Source of the DNA: a virus
Strand: one strand, 5' to 3'
Length of the DNA: 54,952 nucleotides
Virus record (IMG/VR): IMGVR_UViG_3300031269_000018
Span: 1-54,952 of that record
A program made the translations under genes and the position numbers. The notes below the pieces were generated by a model. It was given only the letters and a program-made list of their open reading frames with translations. It was not told the DNA's origin and did no database searches. Below, piece after piece: positions 1 to 20,006 of this stretch. The first letter of the stretch is position 1. Every line of letters begins with the position of its first letter.

Positions 1-3000
1 TCAGTCAGCTGCGATGTCGCTACCATCAGTAGCAGGTGGTGCGGCTGGTTTTATATCTCCGATCCCAGGAGGTCTTGCAATTGGTACTGGTATTGGTACT
101 TTTTCTGTTGAAGCCGGGGCGTATCTTAACGGCGAAATAATCAAAGAAATGCAGAAGCAAGGTCGCGACATAAAAGATTTGACTCAAAATGATGTGTTAA
201 AAGTACTTGACTCTCCTGCGTTTATTGACGGCGCCAAAACAAGAGCGGTGAAAGCGGGTTTATCCGTAGCGGTGGTCGAAGCGTTGTTTGCGGGTGTTGC
301 AGGTAAAATTATTGCGAGAGGACCGGCTAAAGCAGCGGAGCTTGGAATTGAACAAGCTAAAAAAAGTCAATTTGCAAGAGGTGGCGCTGCGTTTGCACTT
401 GAAACTGCAGGAGAACCAGCAGGCGTAATCGCTCAGCAGTTGGCAACAGGTGAGGAGCTTAATTTCGGTGATGCGGCCTTAGAAGGCATTTCGGGACTAG
501 CTCAGTCAGCAGGTACGGTGGCCACAGTTCAAGCTTTATCAACAGCTAAATCACAAATAGCAAATGCAACTCTAGGTGCTAGACGTCCGGCTGTAGATGA
601 TCTTGATAAAGTATTTGGCGAGGGAGTTGATGATGTGCCGGTAGACTTGCTGTCTGAAGAGCTAAGTAAGCCCGATAGCATAATGGAACCGCAAATTCCT
701 GAGTCACAGCCAGAAACACAGGATCAATTAGACTACAAAGCTGAGGTTCAAGGTGCTCAAGACATTATCGATCAGTACCCTGACTTGCAAGACATGGCGG
801 GATCAATAGATGAAAGCACATTAATTAATTCTAACATCCCTCAAGAAATGTTCTTGGTCGCTAGTGAGATACCAGCAAATCAGAGAACACCGGGACAACA
901 AGCATTAGTTGCCTATGGACGCAAACTTTCAAAGCCAGGCATGTCAGACACAGAAGAAATTGCACAAGGCATTTCAGATCCTATACCACAAGATCCTGAC
1001 ATGCCGAGTGACTACGACCAAGAACAAGCTGACATGCAACGTTACGAAGCTACACGAGCACTTGATCCTGTATTACTTGGAAACGCAGATAGAGAATTCA
1101 TTGCTGATTATGAAGCCGAAAATGAAGTTACACCTGAGATGGCTCAACAAGATTTTGACAGCAAACCTATTGCAGCAAGAACGCCTAAAGAAATACTGGC
1201 AAACGAAGATCGTCAGAGTATGGCAAACGAAGTAGCAGCTGCTCCAGAGGTTACGGCGCCAGTTACAAATGAAACAGTATCAGATGCCGTCACTGAGCTT
1301 GAAGGGCGAAATGCTCAAGCAAGTGTAGCCGTTCCAATTGAAGCGGGAGAGTTAGGTACAAATACAGCACAGGCAGATACTACAGATACTGAACAGGGCT
1401 TTGTCAGTGAAGTACCTACAAACGCTGAAATCGACATAGCAGCAAACGAAGCAGCGGCATCACCAACAATCGACGAAAACAAAGCAGCTCTAGCTGAATT
1501 AAAATCGCAGAAACCTAAAGGTATCAAGGCTAAGCGTGATCAAATTGTAGCGATTGCAGATAAGACCACTGAAATTAAAGAAGCAGTGATCCTTGATATC
1601 GACACGAAAGCTAACGAGTCTGCGTTATCACCAACTAACAACAAACCTGAGCCAACTGATGCACAAAAAGAATCAGGTGATTATGACAAAGGCTTAGTGA
1701 CAATCGACGGGATGGGCATTGCGATTGAGAATCCTAGAGGGTCAACACGTAAAGGCAAAGACACGGATGGTAAAGAGTGGGCGACTACCATGAAAGACCA
1801 TTACGGCGAGATCCAGAATACGCGAGGCGCTGATGGTGATAACGTTGATGTATTTATTGGTGACGATCCTACATCCGATGCTGTGTTTATTGTTGACCAG
1901 ATTGACCCAACCACAGGAAAGTTTGACGAGCACAAAGTTATTTTAGGTGCTAACTCACTTAAACAAGCAACTATGTTTTATGGCCGTAATTACGACAAAG
2001 ACTGGAAAGGTGCTGGTGCGGTTACTGAGATGACCAAAGACGAGTTTAAAACGTGGTTATCTGACGGTGATAATAAAGTACCAGTTAGTGACACAATAGC
2101 CACTACTCCTGCCGTTACTGAGTCTTCTGCATCCAGTGATATAAAACCTGACGCTGTTGCACCTCCTGCCGCACCAGCAAAACTTGCACCATTACCAGCG
2201 TCGGTTTCAATTGGGCCAGGTTCATTTAAACCTAAACCACTTGGCGGTACGTTATTTAGGGAGACAAATGCTGAAGGGGTCGGTGATATACTTAGAGATG
2301 TTCTTTCAAATAATAGCTACCAAGGAGCCTCTAAAACTACATTCGTTACAGATAATAAAGATCTTGCTCTCGGTCAAGGCGCTAATAAAGGTGTCATGAT
2401 TGAAATGGATGGTAGTTTAGTATCCGGCAGTGAGAACAAAAAACCCGGTACTGGAATTATGGAAGGTGGCGGTAAAGAGTATAAAACAGACTTTATTGGT
2501 CGAGATGCAATTACCAGATTTACTATTCCTAGTGGCTTCAAATTAAAAGGCCCTGCTAGAGTATTTGCAAACGAGCAATTTAGTAAGGTAAAAAACGAAG
2601 ATGGTAGCATAACGTTTACCAGAAAAGATCTTCCAACCCCTGCGCCAGTCGCTGCACCTAAAAAGCCAACAATGGCTGAAAACAAAGCTGCAAAAGATGC
2701 TGCGAAAGCCGCACAGCCTACTGACGATAAACGCACAGCGGCTAGAAAGAAATCACTTGCCGTTAATGACACTGATTCACTTGCAACTGCAGTCGCTAAA
2801 CGTGGTGGCCTTGATAAAGCTTCATGGATACGAGAAGGCGCTGATCCTGCAGCTGCTAAACGTGGCGGTAATAGTGTTCCGGTTCCCATTGGTAAGCCAC
2901 TATTCAGAGCAAAAGGTGGCATGACTGCAGATAGTGTAGCGGAGTTGGCCAATGAGCTAGGGTACGGCAATGATATAGATGCAAATACCGCAGTAAGTAT

Positions 3001-6000
3001 GATCCTCGGTGAGTTAAATGGCACACCTTCATATACGCCAGCTGGTACTGAGTCTCAGATGGCCGCAGCAATGGATGACCAAGAAGCTGCTCAAGCGCAA
3101 GCAGATGACTTTGATTTGCAGTCAGAACAAGACGGTACAGCTACACCACCGGCAACGCCGGAACCAGCAGCGCCAACAATGAACGATGTAGAAAGCCCTG
3201 AAGAGTTTGGTCTTACTGGCTCGGATAGAGCATCGGATGCGAATGCAAACCAAAGTGATATGTTCTCTCCTGGTGCTATGAACGAGCCTGTGTTTGACGA
3301 TGACGATGATGGTTATGCTTTTGGTTTACCTAATGATTCAATTGAAGGTAGTTCTGATAGCAAAGAACCCTTGTCTGAAGTATCAGAGCCAACTAAACCA
3401 ACACTTGCACCGGAATCATCGCCAATTGCTAAGCTTGTAAAGAACGGCGATCCTCTGGCAGTAGTACAGAATTTAGAAGCTCGACTGGCAGGAACCATGC
3501 TCGGTGAGATAGTTACACGTATAAAAGACTTGATCCCACAGGGACTTCGTTTTGAAACCATTTCTATTGGTGATGTTGACCCTACGCCTTCTGGCAACTT
3601 TAAACGGTCCGTTGGGATCTTCTGGCCTTCTCAGAACAAAATCATATTGCGTGACGAAACATGGACAGAAAATGGTCTTGATGACGAGACAATCATTCAT
3701 GAAGTACTGCATGCAGTAACTAGAGATCTTCTTCAAACTGGAAATCTTGCAGTAAACAAGAATACAGAGCTCGGACGTGCAACAGCCAATGTTTACGACT
3801 TAGCAAATACAATAATTAAGGCGCTAAAGAAAAGAATAGCTGATGGCACATTAGTAATGGAGAGCAACCTCCTAGATATTGCAACTGAAAATATTGACGA
3901 AATCATTTCATGGGGACTTACTAACGAAAAATTTCAGCAGATTCTAAAAGACACTCATGTGGACTATCAAACTGTATGGTCCAAATTTGTCAGTGCGCTT
4001 GCAAATCTAATGGGGATTAATCAGAACGATATGACAGCGTTTGAAGCGTTAATGTCAGCGACAGATCAAATTCTTAATGCTGACTTTCGAGCTAATCCTG
4101 AGTCACGTAATGAGTTAGTTAAAACCATTGAATCAAGTTTTGTAAACTCTAAACCGGATCTTCCATCGCAGCAAAGGATCGTAGAGCTACGCGAACAAAA
4201 CAGTATTGATGAGGAGCTACGCGATAACAGACTCGACATCGCTGCCGGCAAACGCATAAAAGATACCAACGCAGAAATAGACATCCTTGAACAGCAGATC
4301 GAAACACGTAGAGCGAATGATCCTCACTTCAAGCCTGGTGAAGAAGACATTGATAAACTTGCTGAAGAGAAGCTTGCCAAATCAAAGCAATACATGACGT
4401 TAATGGATCGTATGAAAGATGCACTTGATGACAAATTAAATTGGTGGGAAAACGTCCCCAATACAATTGGTCGAATAGCCTCAGGTGCGTTTTACGTTGA
4501 GCAATCTGAGCGCAACATGTATGACGGCCGTAAATCAGCGGAAGACTCCATGACTGCTTTTATACACAAAGCAAATAATTCAAAAGTAGCGGCGTCGATG
4601 GTTATTGATAAATTTGGCGCAAAGCTGGTCAATGGTACTGTTACAGCAGTTAGAGAAAAGCCAGGCCTGCGTCAGATACTTGAGGAAGTGTCAAAAAACG
4701 GTACGCGGTTTCTTCGACGCTTTGAGTTGTACTTGGTAGTCAACAGGTCCAAAGAATTAATAGAGCAAGGACGTGAGAACTTTATTACTCAGAAAGAGAT
4801 TGACACTGTAGATGCGTGGATGGAACGAAACCCAAACACAAAAGCGTTATTTGAAAAACAACAACAAGCGCTGGCTAAATGGAACGAAAGTAACTTGCAA
4901 ATTGCTATCGACGCCGGGTGGATAAATTCTCAAGATGCGTTTGGCGGTTTTAAATTTGTAACCGATGAAGGTAAGGAACTGCTAGGACCGGACAGTACGT
5001 TTTTCAAAACAGAAGCTGAAGCTCAATCAGTAGCAGATCAATTAGGAGTGAAAGGTAATATCGAGAAAGTAGATGGTTGGTTCAATGACGCATACGTACC
5101 ATTTTACAGAGTAAGCGATGATGGAACTACAACCAAGTCACCAAAGTCAAAGGGTAAAATTGGAGAGGTTGGCAAAGCAACCAAAAAGCTGAAAGGCGGT
5201 ATAGGTGCAATACCAGTACTCGACAACTTAGTTAAAAACGCTGAGTTTCTTATTAAAGGGTCGATGAACACACTTGCTATGCAAAAAGTAGAGGAGTCTT
5301 TTACCGATACTGCAATGGAAGAAGCAACAGCAGCTGAGCTTCAAGGACTTGATATTGCTAAGCTACTAGACCCGGCTGTTATGAGACAAGAATACAAAGA
5401 AATGCAGGAACAAGCCGAAGCTGACGGAGAACCACTTGCTGATATGACAGATGCGGAGTTGAAAAGATGGACATCATTTAAACAGTTTGCACGACCTACT
5501 TCTCAAAACGTAGCGGTAGTATACCGTAATGGACGTGCTAAGTATTATAAAGTACTGGAGCCTAAATTATTAGATGTTATAAAATCAATTGGGCCTTACA
5601 AAGCGTCTGCACTTCTTAAAATCGTCGGCATGCCAACACGATTACTGCAAAAGTCGATTACCATCATGCCAGCGTTTCTTGTAAGATCGTTTGCTCGTGA
5701 GGTACAGAACGCTTTCATTGTTAATAAAGAAGGTGGTTACAACCCGCTTAAAACGCTTAGCGTAGCACTCAAGAACTTTGGAAAAATAGCAGTCGGTGAT
5801 AATGTATGGATGGAAGAGATGATGGTATCCGGCCATGTAAATTACAATACATACACAAACACAGCGCCTGATAATATACGTGCTCAATTAGAAAAAGCAG
5901 GTGTTAAAAAAGGCAGTTTTAAAGATATTGTGCAAGGGCAATTCTTAGGGCTTCGTCCTATGCTTCGCTTGTATAAGCAAATTGCGATTGCCTCAGAACA

Positions 6001-7177
6001 TGCAAATAGACGATCTGTATATGACTCAGTTTTAGAAGCAGGCGGTACAAAAGAAGAGGCGATGTACCAGGCACTTGATATCATGAACTTTTCAAGACGA
6101 AGCGACTTACAAGCGATGGAAGTTTTAAACGCCGTTGTTCCGTTCCTGAATCCACGTATACAAGGTATTGACAGGTTGTTTAGAGGTTACAAGGAAGATC
6201 GTAAAACATTCGCTCTAAAAGCCGGTATGATGACTGTAGCGGCAACATCACTTGCACTTTGGAATTGGGAAGAAAATGATGAGGAAATGAGCAAACTCAA
6301 GGATGAGGACAAAGCCATGAATTACCATTTCTTTATTGATACTGGATCAGGTGTCAAGCAACATTGGCGTATACCAAAAGGCTTTGAAGTTGGTCAGATT
6401 ACAGGTACATTACCTGAGTTCTTTGTTGAGCAGCTTTACGGCAAAACACCGGAGCCTACTCTAAAAGCACTTCGTCGATTTATGACGACCACGTTTGGCC
6501 TTCAAACACCTCAGTTCATAGCCCCTATTAAAGACGTTGGATTTAATGAGGACTCGTTTAGACAGCGGCCTATTGTTAACTTTGGACAGCAGTTCTTATT
6601 GCCTCCTCAGCAGTTTGACCAGTGGACGTCGAAGCTTGTTGTAGATATCGCTCAGTCACAACCAGACTGGATGCCTACTTGGTTTCGTTCGCCTAAGCAA
6701 CTTGAGTATTTAATTAAAGGCTATACTGGCTCAGCGGGTGCATTAGTGCTTGAAGGGATTGACGATATTTACCGAGCTACAGGTAATGCACCTGATCTAC
6801 CAACCAAGAAATTATCTGAAAGGTATTTGATACGCGACTATTTACGCACTGGGTCATCATCATCTACAAAGCAAACGGATCTTTTTTATGACATGTTAAC
6901 GGACGTTGGTAAGCTATCAAGTACGTTAAAATCAGCTAAGGATTCAGATCGTGCACAGTATCGCGAGTTAAAAGCAACTAACCGTGAGAAACTTGCCGCA
7001 CGTAAATCGCTGAATAGAATTGGCAGTCAAATGACTAAGATATCAAATCGTATCAATAGAGTACTTGAGTCAGATGCAAGCAGGGACTTTAAAGCAGCTG
7101 AGAAAGATCGCCTTGTAAAACAAAGAAACGAAATGGCTCAGCGAGCAGTGGATAAGTACTTCTACATATTTGACTAG
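1..7177 (+). CDS. Giant polyvalent internal-virion protein, 3' part (continues from 54116)
   Basis: This is the C-terminal ~2391 residues of a 2616-residue protein; the frame is open from base 2 and joins in frame to the ATG at 54116 through the 163-bp overlap. In full-length numbering I see a Gly/Ala-rich hydrophobic start (~230-350); a long acidic linker; an inorganic-pyrophosphatase-like polyvalent domain (~785-915, around GMGIAIENPRG and DGDNVDVFIGDD); a region vaguely like ADP-ribosyltransferases (~968-1100, weak); a zincin metallopeptidase motif HEVLH near 1458 (bases 3698-3712); coiled-coil stretches; and a segment like the large-polyvalent-protein domain LPD38 (~2100-2440). Phage and conjugative polyvalent proteins of this type are delivered with DNA into the cell. 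Its place after the internal-virion genes suggests it is ejected, but this is inference. The gene ends at a UUCG terminator and overlaps the convergent gene by four bases. Confidence 0.85.
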   Translation, partial: QSAAMSLPSVAGGAAGFISPIPGGLAIGTGIGTFSVEAGAYLNGEIIKEMQKQGRDIKDLTQNDVLKVLDSPAFIDGAKTRAVKAGLSVAVVEALFAGVAGKIIARGPAKAAELGIEQAKKSQFARGGAAFALETAGEPAGVIAQQLATGEELNFGDAALEGISGLAQSAGTVATVQALSTAKSQIANATLGARRPAVDDLDKVFGEGVDDVPVDLLSEELSKPDSIMEPQIPESQPETQDQLDYKAEVQGAQDIIDQYPDLQDMAGSIDESTLINSNIPQEMFLVASEIPANQRTPGQQALVAYGRKLSKPGMSDTEEIAQGISDPIPQDPDMPSDYDQEQADMQRYEATRALDPVLLGNADREFIADYEAENEVTPEMAQQDFDSKPIAARTPKEILANEDRQSMANEVAAAPEVTAPVTNETVSDAVTELEGRNAQASVAVPIEAGELGTNTAQADTTDTEQGFVSEVPTNAEIDIAANEAAASPTIDENKAALAELKSQKPKGIKAKRDQIVAIADKTTEIKEAVILDIDTKANESALSPTNNKPEPTDAQKESGDYDKGLVTIDGMGIAIENPRGSTRKGKDTDGKEWATTMKDHYGEIQNTRGADGDNVDVFIGDDPTSDAVFIVDQIDPTTGKFDEHKVILGANSLKQATMFYGRNYDKDWKGAGAVTEMTKDEFKTWLSDGDNKVPVSDTIATTPAVTESSASSDIKPDAVAPPAAPAKLAPLPASVSIGPGSFKPKPLGGTLFRETNAEGVGDILRDVLSNNSYQGASKTTFVTDNKDLALGQGANKGVMIEMDGSLVSGSENKKPGTGIMEGGGKEYKTDFIGRDAITRFTIPSGFKLKGPARVFANEQFSKVKNEDGSITFTRKDLPTPAPVAAPKKPTMAENKAAKDAAKAAQPTDDKRTAARKKSLAVNDTDSLATAVAKRGGLDKASWIREGADPAAAKRGGNSVPVPIGKPLFRAKGGMTADSVAELANELGYGNDIDANTAVSMILGELNGTPSYTPAGTESQMAAAMDDQEAAQAQADDFDLQSEQDGTATPPATPEPAAPTMNDVESPEEFGLTGSDRASDANANQSDMFSPGAMNEPVFDDDDDGYAFGLPNDSIEGSSDSKEPLSEVSEPTKPTLAPESSPIAKLVKNGDPLAVVQNLEARLAGTMLGEIVTRIKDLIPQGLRFETISIGDVDPTPSGNFKRSVGIFWPSQNKIILRDETWTENGLDDETIIHEVLHAVTRDLLQTGNLAVNKNTELGRATANVYDLANTIIKALKKRIADGTLVMESNLLDIATENIDEIISWGLTNEKFQQILKDTHVDYQTVWSKFVSALANLMGINQNDMTAFEALMSATDQILNADFRANPESRNELVKTIESSFVNSKPDLPSQQRIVELREQNSIDEELRDNRLDIAAGKRIKDTNAEIDILEQQIETRRANDPHFKPGEEDIDKLAEEKLAKSKQYMTLMDRMKDALDDKLNWWENVPNTIGRIASGAFYVEQSERNMYDGRKSAEDSMTAFIHKANNSKVAASMVIDKFGAKLVNGTVTAVREKPGLRQILEEVSKNGTRFLRRFELYLVVNRSKELIEQGRENFITQKEIDTVDAWMERNPNTKALFEKQQQALAKWNESNLQIAIDAGWINSQDAFGGFKFVTDEGKELLGPDSTFFKTEAEAQSVADQLGVKGNIEKVDGWFNDAYVPFYRVSDDGTTTKSPKSKGKIGEVGKATKKLKGGIGAIPVLDNLVKNAEFLIKGSMNTLAMQKVEESFTDTAMEEATAAELQGLDIAKLLDPAVMRQEYKEMQEQAEADGEPLADMTDAELKRWTSFKQFARPTSQNVAVVYRNGRAKYYKVLEPKLLDVIKSIGPYKASALLKIVGMPTRLLQKSITIMPAFLVRSFAREVQNAFIVNKEGGYNPLKTLSVALKNFGKIAVGDNVWMEEMMVSGHVNYNTYTNTAPDNIRAQLEKAGVKKGSFKDIVQGQFLGLRPMLRLYKQIAIASEHANRRSVYDSVLEAGGTKEEAMYQALDIMNFSRRSDLQAMEVLNAVVPFLNPRIQGIDRLFRGYKEDRKTFALKAGMMTVAATSLALWNWEENDEEMSKLKDEDKAMNYHFFIDTGSGVKQHWRIPKGFEVGQITGTLPEFFVEQLYGKTPEPTLKALRRFMTTTFGLQTPQFIAPIKDVGFNEDSFRQRPIVNFGQQFLLPPQQFDQWTSKLVVDIAQSQPDWMPTWFRSPKQLEYLIKGYTGSAGALVLEGIDDIYRATGNAPDLPTKKLSERYLIRDYLRTGSSSSTKQTDLFYDMLTDVGKLSSTLKSAKDSDRAQYRELKATNREKLAARKSLNRIGSQMTKISNRINRVLESDASRDFKAAEKDRLVKQRNEMAQRAVDKYFYIFD

Positions 7178-15131: not shown

Positions 15132-15164
15132 ACAATAGTCGTACTTAACAAAGATGTCAAGTAC
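15132..15164 (-). promoter_or_regulatory. Sigma70-like promoter with a 24-bp palindrome over the -35
   Basis: On the minus strand TTGACA (15160-15155) is followed by 17 bases and TATTGT (15137-15132), then 15105 is the start of the exonuclease gene. The -35 lies in an almost perfect inverted repeat, GTACTTAACA - AAGA - TGTCAAGTAC (plus strand, 15141-15164, one mismatch). The right arm overlaps the stop codon of the upstream nuclease gene. A near-identical core occurs at 29711-29728, so a shared DNA-binding protein is likely. Confidence 0.6.
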
Positions 15165-15867
15165 TTTTATGCTCGCATTGATCTTCTCTTGCTTCGCACC
15201 ATCCGCAAAGATGATTCGGTTTTGCAGGCCAGTTCCCCGACTCATTGCACATTTGAATTAACTCTTGGCGATCACCAAAGTCTTGCCATATTGCCTCCAT
15301 GTCTTTACGAGAATATTCAGCGTAAGTAGGTGATGTGTTTTCGTGCTCGCACCATACATAAGCAGTCAGAACTCGATTGACTTTTTTATATTTTGAAAGA
15401 ACCGCACCTGCAAACAATTTAAGCTGGTCGCTATGCTGTTTTACTTTTCCAGTCTTCCAGTCAATGACCAATGCAAAGTCACCGACTATAATAAGCGCAT
15501 CAAGTACGACTCTACACCACGCTTTTTTATCGAACCAACTGACCTCATGCATGCGGATATCAAATGTCACCTGGAGTTCAGGTAGCACTGTATTTGCTTT
15601 GCGCATCTTATCGAGCAGCGGCATCAAGAAGTCCAGTTTTACAGAGAACGTTTCAGGTCCGTTTATTTCAGGCACTGGGAATGGGATCTTTGTACCATCG
15701 CGCAAGTAGTCCTCTAATACTTTATGCACCGCCTTACCTTTTTTAAAGTGAGCAGCTTCAAAGTTAGGTTTTGGAAATACTTTGCCAACGTTATTTCCCC
15801 AAAAACGCTTAGGGCATTGCTCAAACATACTCAGTCGGCTCCAACTCCATGCTATCGGTTTACTCAT
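15157..15867 (-). CDS. RecB-like PD-(D/E)XK nuclease with Cys cluster, 236 aa
   Basis: WSWSRLSMFEQCPKRFW opens the protein as in RecB/Cas4-type nucleases; FALVIDWKTGKVKQHSDQLK gives the D...D-x-K core and Q helix. Three Cys in the tail (CGWCEAREDQC) plus Cys18 could bind an iron-sulphur cluster or zinc as in Cas4/AddB, though spacing is only consistent, not proof. Likely a DNA end-processing exonuclease of the replication-recombination module. Start context CTGGAGAGTAAAA-ATG. Confidence 0.8.
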   Translation of the reverse strand: MSKPIAWSWSRLSMFEQCPKRFWGNNVGKVFPKPNFEAAHFKKGKAVHKVLEDYLRDGTKIPFPVPEINGPETFSVKLDFLMPLLDKMRKANTVLPELQVTFDIRMHEVSWFDKKAWCRVVLDALIIVGDFALVIDWKTGKVKQHSDQLKLFAGAVLSKYKKVNRVLTAYVWCEHENTSPTYAEYSRKDMEAIWQDFGDRQELIQMCNESGNWPAKPNHLCGWCEAREDQCEHKST

Positions 15868-15897: not shown

Positions 15898-16071
15898 TTA
15901 ATCCTTAATTTTCAGGCCCATGCGTACCATTTTTTGTATTACATGTAACTTTTTACGCTTTGGAAATTCAAGTGCAATTAGATCCGTTTTCATTCCTGAT
16001 TGACGAAGTTTAAATAGTTTTTTGGTGTCTTCGTCTGACCAGTTTGTTTGTCCTCTTCTACTTCTCAGCAT
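15898..16071 (-). CDS. Small SANT/GcrA-like DNA-binding protein, 57 aa
   Basis: Too short for common cut-offs. The sequence reads MLRSRRGQTNWSDEDTKKL..., with W-S-x-E/D-x3-K-x-L near residues 11-19, then IALEFPKRKKLHVIQKMVRMGL. This W-[ST]-x-E...L-x4-G...IA..FP-R....V..K..R.GL pattern is that of SANT/Myb or GcrA-like helix-turn-helix segments. The ATG at 16071 shares a base with the methyltransferase stop (TAATG), supporting coupled translation. A DNA-binding regulator next to a methyltransferase is inferred. Confidence 0.65.
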   Translation of the reverse strand: MLRSRRGQTNWSDEDTKKLFKLRQSGMKTDLIALEFPKRKKLHVIQKMVRMGLKIKD

Positions 16072-18116
16072 TATAATTTCCTAAAGTCGACGTAAGTGTC
16101 TCGGATGTTCTGATTAAGTCCCCATGGTGTGAATATGTAAACGCAACATGCAAACTTAGGTCCTTGCGGCTTGCCGTCTTTATCGACAAACCCAGAACCG
16201 TCAGGCCGCAGAAACTTCATTCTATAGGGCATATGGATCACAGTGTCAGCAAGTGCTCTCGCATTGCGTGTATAATCTGTCTCAGGTTTATCAGGCACAA
16301 GCAACGCTGTTAGGCTGCACCCTTTCATCGCCTCCTTAGCAGCTTTTAAAACCCACGGCTTTATATCGCTGTATGGAGGGTTGCAGAAATTTGCTGTCGG
16401 AGACCATGGCAATTTAAAAGCATCCTCACTTCGTTCCGCTAGTGAATAGTACTCACCGCATTTAGCTGTTCTCTTTAGCGCACAGACATCCAATCTAAAT
16501 GAGATACGCAAGTACTTTTCAAGTGCTTTTACGAACTCAGGCGGTGTCTGAGCGAGATCTTTTTCTTCTTCCGGTGTATTGCTGTTGTTGTTTTCCAATT
16601 GCGGCTCCTTGTATTGGTCTATGTTTGGGATCTGATTGAAAATGTGAGCGATAACGTCAATAGTCCAACCGTTACCAAACATTTTATATAATTGCGAGTT
16701 GCTTATACCGGCGCTTAACAACGTGTCTAAAATGTCCTCTGGTATTGTTTGAAGTCTGCCGCATTCGCGGGGTGTTAGTTTGCGGTAGTGAATGTTTTTA
16801 AGGCATTCGCTTTTTATAGAAAGTTTATTGTTATGTTCCCAACTATTTGCGCTTAATGTAGGGGTTTTACCGTCTAGCGCCTTTTCACCTCCTTTATTAA
16901 AACCTCGAGGTGTTTGTTGTATTGATACTTTAGATTCTTCTATTAATAAATTCCCAGCTCCAGCAGTGCCCCCAGATTGAGATGATAAAGCTATCGACTT
17001 TCCAAATTTTGAATAAACCCTATTACCTTGACCCCCGCCTTTAAATTCATGCACTCTTATTGGCGCGTTACTCGAATTATCTATTGATACTTTAGGCTCT
17101 AAGTTGCCCCCTGTTGCCGCTGCTAATGTTGGTGCTTTACCATTCGGTGAATAAATACGTTTATTGTAATCATGCCCTTTAATGTCTGATGCAGTGGCTA
17201 CTCTTTGTATAACAAAATTGTCTTTTTGAACCGTTGTAAGTGAGTTTGTTTTATCGTCTTTCCTAACTTCAAATTGCTGTTGTATTTTACCGTTATCGTT
17301 ATATCTTCCGCGTTGTGCTACGCATTTAACCTCTAAATAATTATATGGAACGCCTTTGTGCATGTTAGCAGTGAGACAAAATGATTTTTCTTTATCTTCT
17401 GATTGGGTACATCTATCAGCCCTACGCGCACCGGCTTGTTGCCACTTTTCATTGCCTTGTTGCATGTAATTAATTGCGCTATCAGTGTGAAAAAAAGAAC
17501 TTTCAACCTCACTTTCAAGAATGTCTTTTAACACAATTCCCTTATCTTTCGGTTGCTCAACGCCCCAATTACACCAGTAATAACGCTGCCTGTTTTGTGC
17601 GCTAACTAATGCGCTGTTGATAAAGACAGGCTCTACACCGATTGCATTACTAATTAAGTCCAAAAAGTCTTTTTTCATCTTCACGTTTTCAAGGAAGAAC
17701 CTAATGTTAGGGTTGACTAACTTGATATGGTCTAGCAATAAAATATATTCCCAAAACAGATAAGACTGACTTAAAAACTCTGCACCTGCTAATTTCAACT
17801 CAAGGTACTTTTCTCTGCTATCAACAACTATTTTTTCACCGTTTAGTATTGCAGCAGTGCCAGCCATTTTTCCGGCCATTGAGAAACCCTGGCACGGTGA
17901 ACCACCAATGAATAAATCAATCGTTGACCAGTTAATTAACCATTTGCGCCACTTAGTTATATTGCCCATTTGTATGGTTTTAGGGAATACCGCTATAGTT
18001 CCTTGTATAGCGTACTTATTAATCTCACTTGCATAGTATTTAGCGGGTTTTATCCCCATTACTTTTAATGCGGTTTGGCCGCCTGAATGACCGTCGAACG
18101 CTGCAAACACATTCAT
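16071..18116 (-). CDS. Bifunctional DNA methyltransferase: C5-cytosine domain fused to N6-adenine (Dam-like) domain, 681 aa
   Basis: Residues 1-490 are a cytosine-C5 methyltransferase: AAFDGHSGGQ (motif I), GGSPCQGFSMAG with catalytic Cys75, FLENV (143-145), SAQNRQRYY (174-178), LTPRECGRLQ (448-456) and MFGNGWTID (479-487). The target-recognition part (~266-435) contains three or four related modules around GRYNDNGK, IYSPNGKAPTLAAATGG, VYSKFGKSIALSSQSGG and ALDGKTPTLSA, so more than one target sequence is possible. Residues 524-681 match the phage Dam-type N6-adenine family: TPPEFVKALEKYL, FRLDVCAL, and NPPY at 579-582. It may protect phage DNA from restriction; target sites are unknown. Three bases separate it from the polymerase gene. 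Confidence 0.88.
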   Translation of the reverse strand: MNVFAAFDGHSGGQTALKVMGIKPAKYYASEINKYAIQGTIAVFPKTIQMGNITKWRKWLINWSTIDLFIGGSPCQGFSMAGKMAGTAAILNGEKIVVDSREKYLELKLAGAEFLSQSYLFWEYILLLDHIKLVNPNIRFFLENVKMKKDFLDLISNAIGVEPVFINSALVSAQNRQRYYWCNWGVEQPKDKGIVLKDILESEVESSFFHTDSAINYMQQGNEKWQQAGARRADRCTQSEDKEKSFCLTANMHKGVPYNYLEVKCVAQRGRYNDNGKIQQQFEVRKDDKTNSLTTVQKDNFVIQRVATASDIKGHDYNKRIYSPNGKAPTLAAATGGNLEPKVSIDNSSNAPIRVHEFKGGGQGNRVYSKFGKSIALSSQSGGTAGAGNLLIEESKVSIQQTPRGFNKGGEKALDGKTPTLSANSWEHNNKLSIKSECLKNIHYRKLTPRECGRLQTIPEDILDTLLSAGISNSQLYKMFGNGWTIDVIAHIFNQIPNIDQYKEPQLENNNSNTPEEEKDLAQTPPEFVKALEKYLRISFRLDVCALKRTAKCGEYYSLAERSEDAFKLPWSPTANFCNPPYSDIKPWVLKAAKEAMKGCSLTALLVPDKPETDYTRNARALADTVIHMPYRMKFLRPDGSGFVDKDGKPQGPKFACCVYIFTPWGLNQNIRDTYVDFRKL

Positions 18117-18119
18117 GGA

Positions 18120-20006
18120 TCATAGCTCCTTTAATTCTGACCAACGAGAACCTACTTGCACATCCCATGTTAGCGGTACAGTTGGTGTATAGCCCCACCA
18201 TTTGCCGTAATCCATTTTGTTAAGCATTTCACGGCACTCAATAAGACGTGAGTTTGGGACGTCGTTTTTTACTTCGTAGTGTAATCCGTCATGTAAATCA
18301 AACCAAAACTCAAACTCTGGAAAGTATTTTCCGATTTCTTGTATTGCTAAGTCTTTCATATCAGCGCCACTGCCTTGGATCGGAAAGTTTATAGCTGATG
18401 ATTCAGTCGACCATTTACTTTCTTTATCCCAAAAATCTAATTTATAGCGACGACCTGCCATTGATTCGGCATAGCCTGTTAGTTTGCCTTTGTTTATAGC
18501 ACTCGTCCAGTATGGCTTAATTTTCTTAAAGCCTCTGTGAAACGTATTTTGCCAGCTTGCGGCCGTCATAAAATCAACGTTCATTCCGTATTGAACCCGC
18601 GCTTGAACCCGCAACTTTTTTACGCCAATTCGATAGTTATTTGCTAGATTTGTGAATTTGCCTTGGTAGCGATAACCATGATCCCCGGTAATAGCAGTGT
18701 TTCCTTCTTTCTTTCCTTTCATGAAATCGTCGTAATGGATCCCTGATATCTCAGAGCCAGTGAACGAGTGAAAATCTTTTCCCATTACAAATATCTCAGT
18801 CATATTCTCATCGCCTGAGTAGTCTGCTATCAATCGAGACTCTTGACCCGCTGCATCGTACTCTACGTGCTTGTATCCCGGTCTGGGGCGTATCAATGCG
18901 CGAAACTCTTTTTGTCTTGGCCATTGATGTAATGCCATACCAATTGAGTATTTTTTCTTGATCTTGCTTGTGTATGTCATCCTACCGGTATAAGTGGAGA
19001 ATATTCTGGCTTGCGGGTGCAGTACTTCACTGCCAAGGTACTCTCGAGATTTTAAAGGTGATTGAATGTACTTTGTAAGTTGAGTATTTAATTGGCGCCA
19101 TCTTAGGATCTCAATAACATGGTCATCATCATCTGCAAGATAGGTCAACGCCGCTTTATCGGTGCTCGGTGCTTTGGTTTTTTCACTGAAACTTTTAGGT
19201 GTCAGCTTCCATACATCGTAGAGTAGGTTTGCCATTTGTTTCGGGCTGCGCAGTATTTTACTGGGGATCCAACCATTCACGCCAAGTCGAACTACTTTTG
19301 ACTGCTGATGATTATGCACGCCCAGTTTGTATTCGATGGTAGCCATCTCTTCTGTGATCGCAGGGGTGATATCATCAATAAGCGAGAAGTCTACCATTAC
19401 ACCGCGCTCGTATGACTCTGCAACTGGTATCAAGCTTGCCATTGAGATCATACATGATTTCTGCTGTTGAGGCGTGAGGCGTGAGTATGCAACGGTAGCG
19501 ACTCGTGCTGTCATAATGGCGTCAAGCTTTGCTCTGGTTTCCCAGTACTTGCCTTGAGCGCCTGCATGCACTTCTTGCTCTTTCATTTTTACAAACGCAA
19601 CCGCCCAAGGCTCGTCTTTGAAAAAGTACTTCACCGCATCTGCTAGTGACCAGGCAGGGCGTCGTTCTTTTCGCTGTGAGTTTGAAAGCCATTTCCAAAT
19701 AATCCCGGCGTCGACCCACTTTATTTTCTTCACTTCTTCTACATAACCAGCCGCAATTAAAAATGAAATGTCAAACGTGAGGTTATAGCCAGTGAGTGTC
19801 TGACCTTCTAAGCTTCTTAGTAACGCCCGGTACTGTGTCTTCTTTTGTACAACAAACGCTTCTCCGGATGCTTTTCCAACCGCTATATTCGTGATCATGG
19901 CAGTGCCTTCCCGTACTCTCCATGGTTGCAGTGCATATTCTTGAGGGGCATCTCCAGTAGGTGCTGTCTCAATATCCAATGCAGGGATATCTAGTTTGTT
20001 TGACAT
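18120..20006 (-). CDS. DNA polymerase, family A with 3'-5' exonuclease domain, 628 aa
   Basis: The N-terminal proofreading domain shows LDIETAP (Asp11, Glu13), GYNLTFDISFLI and KLDAIMTARV. The polymerase part shows motif A VEYDAAGQESRLIADYSGD (~380), motif B around FTNLANNYRIGVKKL, and motif C FDLHDGLHYEV (~572), where the usual HDE reads HDG. There is no 5'-3' exonuclease domain, as in other phage PolA enzymes. It is four bases downstream of the primase-helicase and is the likely replicative polymerase. Confidence 0.92.
   Translation of the reverse strand: MSNKLDIPALDIETAPTGDAPQEYALQPWRVREGTAMITNIAVGKASGEAFVVQKKTQYRALLRSLEGQTLTGYNLTFDISFLIAAGYVEEVKKIKWVDAGIIWKWLSNSQRKERRPAWSLADAVKYFFKDEPWAVAFVKMKEQEVHAGAQGKYWETRAKLDAIMTARVATVAYSRLTPQQQKSCMISMASLIPVAESYERGVMVDFSLIDDITPAITEEMATIEYKLGVHNHQQSKVVRLGVNGWIPSKILRSPKQMANLLYDVWKLTPKSFSEKTKAPSTDKAALTYLADDDDHVIEILRWRQLNTQLTKYIQSPLKSREYLGSEVLHPQARIFSTYTGRMTYTSKIKKKYSIGMALHQWPRQKEFRALIRPRPGYKHVEYDAAGQESRLIADYSGDENMTEIFVMGKDFHSFTGSEISGIHYDDFMKGKKEGNTAITGDHGYRYQGKFTNLANNYRIGVKKLRVQARVQYGMNVDFMTAASWQNTFHRGFKKIKPYWTSAINKGKLTGYAESMAGRRYKLDFWDKESKWSTESSAINFPIQGSGADMKDLAIQEIGKYFPEFEFWFDLHDGLHYEVKNDVPNSRLIECREMLNKMDYGKWWGYTPTVPLTWDVQVGSRWSELKEL

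Follow-up and report, generated by a model that had tools for sequence, protein, structure and literature searches.

How many targets can a single viral DNA methyltransferase be built to modify, and from what parts is such an enzyme assembled? These questions are raised by one gene in a 54,952-nucleotide stretch of viral DNA (IMG/VR record IMGVR_UViG_3300031269_000018, positions 1 to 54,952), which we refer to as the window. A preliminary description had placed at 16071-18116 a two-headed methyltransferase with repeated target-recognition modules. That observation is confirmed: the coordinates and strand are exact, the gene is a single unbroken open reading frame (ORF) of 681 amino acids on the minus strand, and the interpretation then given of the protein is supported in substance. 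We consider it probable, from comparative sequence evidence, that the gene encodes an orphan, multispecific anti-restriction methylase of the type found in Bacillus phages, extended here to five recognition cassettes and a head for N6-methyladenine (m6A).

Two catalytic heads and five recognition cassettes

The protein joins a cytosine-C5 methyltransferase to a Dam-type adenine methyltransferase. Pfam assigns PF00145 (C5-cytosine methyltransferase; E 2e-21, 77 bits against a cut-off of 22) and, at residues 512-650, PF05869 (Dam; E 2e-19, 70 bits against a cut-off of 28), and PHROG families 116 and 111 agree with these domain calls. In the C5 domain, Cys75 is invariant among relatives in the family alignment, the ENV and QNR motifs are present and the fold matches those of DNMT3 and HhaI; the Dam-type domain carries NPPY at residues 579-582. 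The parts of the gene are as follows, with confidence in AlphaFold2 (AF2) models given as the predicted local distance difference test (pLDDT) and with sister genes from other viral contigs denoted L002, L005 and L006.

16071..18116 (-), whole gene of the fused C5-cytosine/N6-adenine DNA methyltransferase, 681 amino acids (ORF, Pfam, PHROG 116 and 111)
17520..18116 (-), C5 catalytic domain, motifs I-VIII, residues 1-199 (Pfam, alignment; AF2 block with pLDDT mostly above 90)
17892..17894 (-), catalytic Cys75, in GGSPCQ
17328..17453 (-), cassette A1, residues 222-263 (profile 80 bits; 95% amino-acid identical in L002 and L005)
17205..17327 (-), cassette B, residues 264-304 (profile 60 bits; 95% amino-acid identical in L005; not in L002)
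17082..17204 (-), cassette C, residues 305-345, predicted target GCNGC (homologous to the phi3T-specific recognition domain of M.phi3TI)
16941..17069 (-), cassette D, residues 350-392, predicted target GCGC-like (profile matches only M.HhaI 228-267 in PDB, with Q237 and R240 kept)
16815..16928 (-), cassette E, residues 397-434 (profile 69 bits; 95% amino-acid and 96% nucleotide identical in L002)
16629..16802 (-), C5 motifs IX-X, residues 439-496 (96-98% amino-acid identical in L002, L005 and L006)
16605..16610 (-), candidate internal Shine-Dalgarno site AAGGAG, 6 nucleotides before a TTG (start-site scan)
16071..16598 (-), Dam domain from the possible internal TTG start (residue 507) to the stop, 175 amino acids (PF05869; N-terminus like that of stand-alone Dams)
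16371..16382 (-), NPPY catalytic motif of the Dam head (NPP[YF] conserved among Dams)

Judged by homology, the five cassettes of about 40 amino acids that lie between C5 motifs VIII and IX, in the order A1-B-C-D-E, are target-recognition domains (TRDs). Comparison of the protein with itself pairs residues ~310-337 of cassette C (IKGHDYNKRIYSPNGKAPTLAAATGG) with 356-383 of cassette D (FKGGGQGNRVYSKFGKSIALSSQSGG), a pairing that none of 500 shuffles equalled; the alignment of C with E is weaker (7/500). Profiles built from the motif VIII-IX segments of collected viral C5 relatives score each of the five cassettes at 57-80 bits and gave 787 matches on real variable regions against none on shuffled or reversed ones. 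Fourteen matches fall within the first 180 residues of relatives, some of which are truncated proteins, so that cassettes begin early. As the profile seeds were chosen by eye, every count of cassettes should be read as a minimum and the limits between families as approximate; overlaps between profiles suggest the superfamilies C/D/H/R, A1/A2/A4/A6/F and B/B2/G. The preliminary description had thus seen real repeats and miscounted them, giving three or four modules where profiles resolve five, and the R-[IV]-Y-S motif by which it defined them is present in C and D only, A1 and B belonging to other superfamilies. Its view of the modules as recognition elements has held up, given their homology to the experimentally defined TRDs of M.phi3TI and M.HhaI, and in how large they are, where they lie and how they are permuted they fit the multispecific C5 enzymes of Bacillus phages, to which it had pointed.

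When modelled by itself, the Dam head reaches a mean pLDDT of 85, and the model resembles the adenine methyltransferases CAPAM and KsgA, if modestly (top E 9e-4); the domain is complete, and its predicted fold is that of an adenine methyltransferase. Sequence comparison places it closest, at 47-50% identity, to stand-alone Dams of Vibrio phage FGH, Thalassomonas phage BA3 and Plesiomonas phage phiP4-7. Against TIGR01712 it scores 56 bits, below the 97-bit equivalog cut-off, which marks it as a divergent clade, so that GATC or a similar target must not be assumed. Stand-alone Dams begin at the point where the window gene has a TTG (residue 507), six bases after AAGGAG, and a separate Dam product from this codon is possible. 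Sites of this type precede 0.64% of start-like codons in the window, including a second in-frame one at residue 597, and 5 of 33 gene starts tested.

Exchange of cassettes and origin of the fusion

The cassettes are permuted extensively. Among 87 relatives we found 73 different cassette strings with 1 to 6 recognised cassettes per protein, and the variable region lengthens by about 38 amino acids per cassette. Beside A1-B-C-D-E in the window, examples include A1-C-E-F (L002), A1-C-E-B2 (L018), A1-B-C (L016), A1-C-B (L027) and E-C-D (L024); B-type cassettes precede C 7 times and follow it 21 times. The first slot is mostly taken by A- or S-type cassettes, so the order is not fully free. The cassette lengths agree with those of Bacillus phage TRDs, reportedly 38-54 amino acids.

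Three sister genes show the process at closer range. DNA-level matches between the window and L002, L005 and L006 are confined to the methyltransferase gene, so the gene passes between phages that are otherwise different. The sister genes differ from it in their cassette sets, by whole cassettes, and nucleotide identity is 77-82% in the N-terminal core, 90-96% in the shared cassettes A1, B, C and E, and 90-93% in motifs IX-X. In L006, the sequence is joined inside cassette B to an F-type cassette, giving a B/F hybrid. Cassette D is bracketed exactly in the window by a direct repeat:

17082..17100 (-), repeat copy 1, at the C/D junction (repeat comparison, sister genes)
16920..16938 (-), repeat copy 2, at the D/E junction, 162 nucleotides (54 codons) from copy 1

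The repeat has a 14-nucleotide exact core, CTAAAGTATCAATA; of 2000 codon shuffles, only 11 produced a repeat like it. In L002 the sequence is GAGCCTAAAGTATCAATACAACAAACAC, which passes from the left joint to the right joint without cassette D. The difference is consistent with repeat-mediated recombination, in a direction (gain or loss of D) that the data do not tell. More broadly, phages from those of Bacillus to those of Proteobacteria may share roughly 25 portable TRD cassettes as a common pool, recombined partly through short joint repeats into arrays of one to six or more per C5 core, which would let them quickly re-aim their methylomes to the restriction enzymes they meet, with five cassettes and an adenine head acting together here; belief and doubt in this wider idea are, for us, about evenly balanced.

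Two side observations concern the same family. L036 (variable region of ORF 3222-5234) and L083 (ORF 3361-4878) carry a helix-turn-helix-like stretch of about 100 amino acids (TNKQIAEETNQPITKVEHWF) within the TRD array, and an 806-amino-acid C5 relative (L011:2530-4950) has an apparent intein at the catalytic PCQ motif (GGSPCFVAGTKV...VHNCQS).

The fusion to a Dam domain, which the preliminary description had called unusual, is indeed rare: we found it only in the window and in two viral contigs, L003 and L004, of identical architecture; another 78 Dam ORFs, in 80 loci, are all unfused. A tblastn search of INPHARED and PLSDB returned no record spanning at least 80% of the fusion, and a scan of genome contigs found none; a first tblastn impression that Proteus phage vB_BPM-V3 encodes such a protein was rejected, as separate small ORFs are present there. 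The Dam of L003 and L004 belongs to a different clade from that of the window, and the two fused Dams fall in separate, well-supported clades of the Dam tree (100/100 and 98/88), which has several long branches and a bootstrap that is not fully settled. The fusion therefore arose at least twice, or the Dam was replaced. A plausible precursor state is seen on Photobacterium damselae plasmid p2_510 (L146:265-2130), where a related C5 gene (525 amino acids) and the phage N6-adenine methyltransferase gene that comes next overlap but are not fused. Separately, L026 (738-1268) and L086 (1-396) show the opposite order to that of the fusions, with a Dam gene immediately upstream of the C5 gene.

Predicted targets, function and competing explanations

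Two of the cassettes can be tied to characterised enzymes. The multispecific enzyme of Bacillus phage phi3T (phi3T_150, L143; identical in DNA in SPbeta) has two TRD segments, one of which, VGHVDLKGHDAIKRVYSPEGLSPTLTTMGGGHREPKI, is of the cassette C type (domain E 2e-22), while the other (NGRRFKxxGEPAFTVNTIDRHGV) is common to phi3T, SPR and SPbetaL2. The targets established by the Trautner laboratory are reportedly GGCC and GCNGC for the phi3T enzyme, and GGCC, CCGG and CCWGG for the SPR enzyme. By elimination, the TRD common to phi3T and SPR would read GGCC and the phi3T-only TRD, hence cassette C, would most likely read GCNGC; a GGCC reading of cassette C was rejected, since the TRD shared with SPR is the other one. 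For cassette D, a search of all PDB sequences with a profile made from four D-type cassettes gives a sole match, M.HhaI, at exactly residues 228-267 (E 1e-7); Q237 and R240 of M.HhaI, which methylates GCGC, are retained, and a GCGC-like target is the most likely for D. By inspection, a counterpart of one SPR-only TRD (ASDWRGLNRNQ) is also present in Proteus phage Saba (L148:292-1575) and in L097, so further Bacillus phage TRDs occur among phages that infect Gram-negative bacteria. Counts of sites in the window, with GGCC somewhat rarer than expected (66 observed, 88 expected) and GCGC and GATC near expectation, were rejected as a sign of methylation or restriction pressure, the signal being too weak; CGCG is also rarer than expected (82 versus 113).

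The gene sits among replication genes, in a cluster that also contains a primase and a helicase, between these neighbours:

18120..20006 (-), DNA polymerase, upstream
15157..15867 (-), exonuclease-type protein, downstream

The polymerase is most similar to those of Xanthomonas phage Xp15 and Acinetobacter phages, at 33-35% identity. In Xp15 the exonuclease directly follows the polymerase with no annotated methyltransferase between them, and no methylase is annotated beside the polymerase of phage Effie, whose genes are mostly unnamed, which makes an accessory insertion the likeliest origin of the gene. Among its immediate neighbours we saw no restriction enzyme, in a scan that did not cover every ORF of the window. 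Elsewhere in the window, an ORF of 2387 amino acids (14-7177, +) spans the first 7 kb.

Published multispecific phage enzymes reach several targets through tandem TRDs (PMC8936443) and protect against several restriction enzymes (PMC8936443, PMC5923457). We propose that one C5 core, acting through Cys75, would be aimed by five tandem cassettes, one used at a time, and would methylate several cytosine motifs, including GCNGC through C and GCGC-like sites through D. The C-terminal Dam head would place m6A at an additional target, perhaps a loose one, and a free form of it may also be made from the internal start. The cassettes form an exchangeable set that relatives gain, lose and re-order by recombination, in one case probably through a short direct repeat at the joints, and the resulting methylation would shield the phage genome from many host restriction enzymes at once.

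Several points weigh against this proposal. In the AF2 model of the full protein, the catalytic core is confident and confidence around cassette C is moderate, yet most other cassette residues have pLDDT below 50, which is uninformative, though not supportive. The GCNGC prediction depends on elimination, and profile searches of the PDB brought up no characterised relative for A1, B or E. Dead cassettes also exist in the family, for L005 lacks the middle of cassette C and retains a truncated remnant. This remnant and the L006 hybrid, together with the inactive TRDs known in Bacillus phage enzymes, would suit an enzyme in which only one or two cassettes are active and the others are decayed leftovers of recombination, leaving one or two cytosine targets and an adenine target. 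Such a reduced repertoire is possible but doubtful, as all five window cassettes keep full family profiles and the shared cassettes are 95-98% identical in amino acids in the sister phages, whereas the catalytic cores are only 80-84% identical. The AF2 model, which structures cassette C and leaves the others largely unstructured, could also be taken to mean that the repeats serve as building elements of a single large TRD with one long or degenerate target; we regard this as very improbable, because cassettes are gained, lost and re-ordered, a relative of 293 amino acids (L063) has a single recognised cassette, and individual cassettes match the TRDs of enzymes whose targets are short and separate.

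Two further alternatives concern the joining of the heads. They might act as separate proteins, in which case Dam would be translated chiefly from the internal start codon and the fusion would be a by-product of losing a stop codon: the AAGGAG-6-TTG arrangement stands exactly where stand-alone Dams begin and is infrequent in the window, L003 retains the in-frame ATG of stand-alone Dams, and the two genes overlap unfused on p2_510. Against this, TTG is a weak start, the gene has two in-frame internal sites, L003 lacks a strong Shine-Dalgarno site, and the in-frame fusion having come about twice independently hints that joining brings a benefit or is at any rate tolerated, so that we hold this account, too, to be rather unlikely. 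An assembly error joining neighbouring genes is conceivable for a metagenomic contig when only one copy of the exact gene is in hand, but the frame runs uninterrupted through a linker and a complete Dam N-terminus, and the same architecture, with a Dam of a different clade, is found identically in L003 and L004, which makes such an artefact extremely improbable.

If the multispecific two-headed enzyme that we favour is correct, a principle hitherto known chiefly from work on a single small set of Bacillus phages would operate on a large scale in environmental phages. Because the cassettes are homologous, each could be given its specificity in turn, which could then be read off the sequence, and the family would offer a natural construction kit for methylases of chosen specificity while indicating which restriction enzymes phages meet. 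That the Dam fusion formed at least twice suggests that protection by both 5-methylcytosine and m6A from one gene is useful.

Relation to known systems

M.HhaI shares the C5 fold, and its TRD (228-267) is the one matched by cassette D, but it is monospecific, with one TRD, and part of a restriction-modification system. M.BssHII, the subject of a title cited in PMC4081073, is a chromosomal multispecific C5 enzyme with several cytosine targets; it lacks a Dam head and is not a phage enzyme with such a cassette array. Compared with phage Dam-type N6-adenine methyltransferases (PF05869, TIGR01712), the window Dam is complete, with its NPPY motif, but is fused behind a C5 enzyme, whereas the nearest ones stand alone. 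The L003/L004 protein has the same two-headed order and several cassettes, with a Dam from another clade and a different cassette set, and represents an independent fusion.

The SPbeta-like Bacillus phage enzymes (M.phi3TI, M.SPRI, M.H2I and M.rho11sI) have, like the window protein, one C5 core with tandem TRDs of about 40 amino acids between motifs VIII and IX, and the window protein belongs with this multispecific type by its possession of two or more such TRDs. The phi3T-specific TRD of M.phi3TI is directly homologous to cassette C, and these enzymes are orphan phage genes, as the window gene may be. They differ in that two to three TRDs are usually cited for them, against five here; the C5 part of the window protein is only about 25% identical to theirs overall and is joined to a Dam domain; and they come from Bacillus phages, whereas the window phage is tied by its DNA polymerase to phages of Xanthomonas and Acinetobacter.
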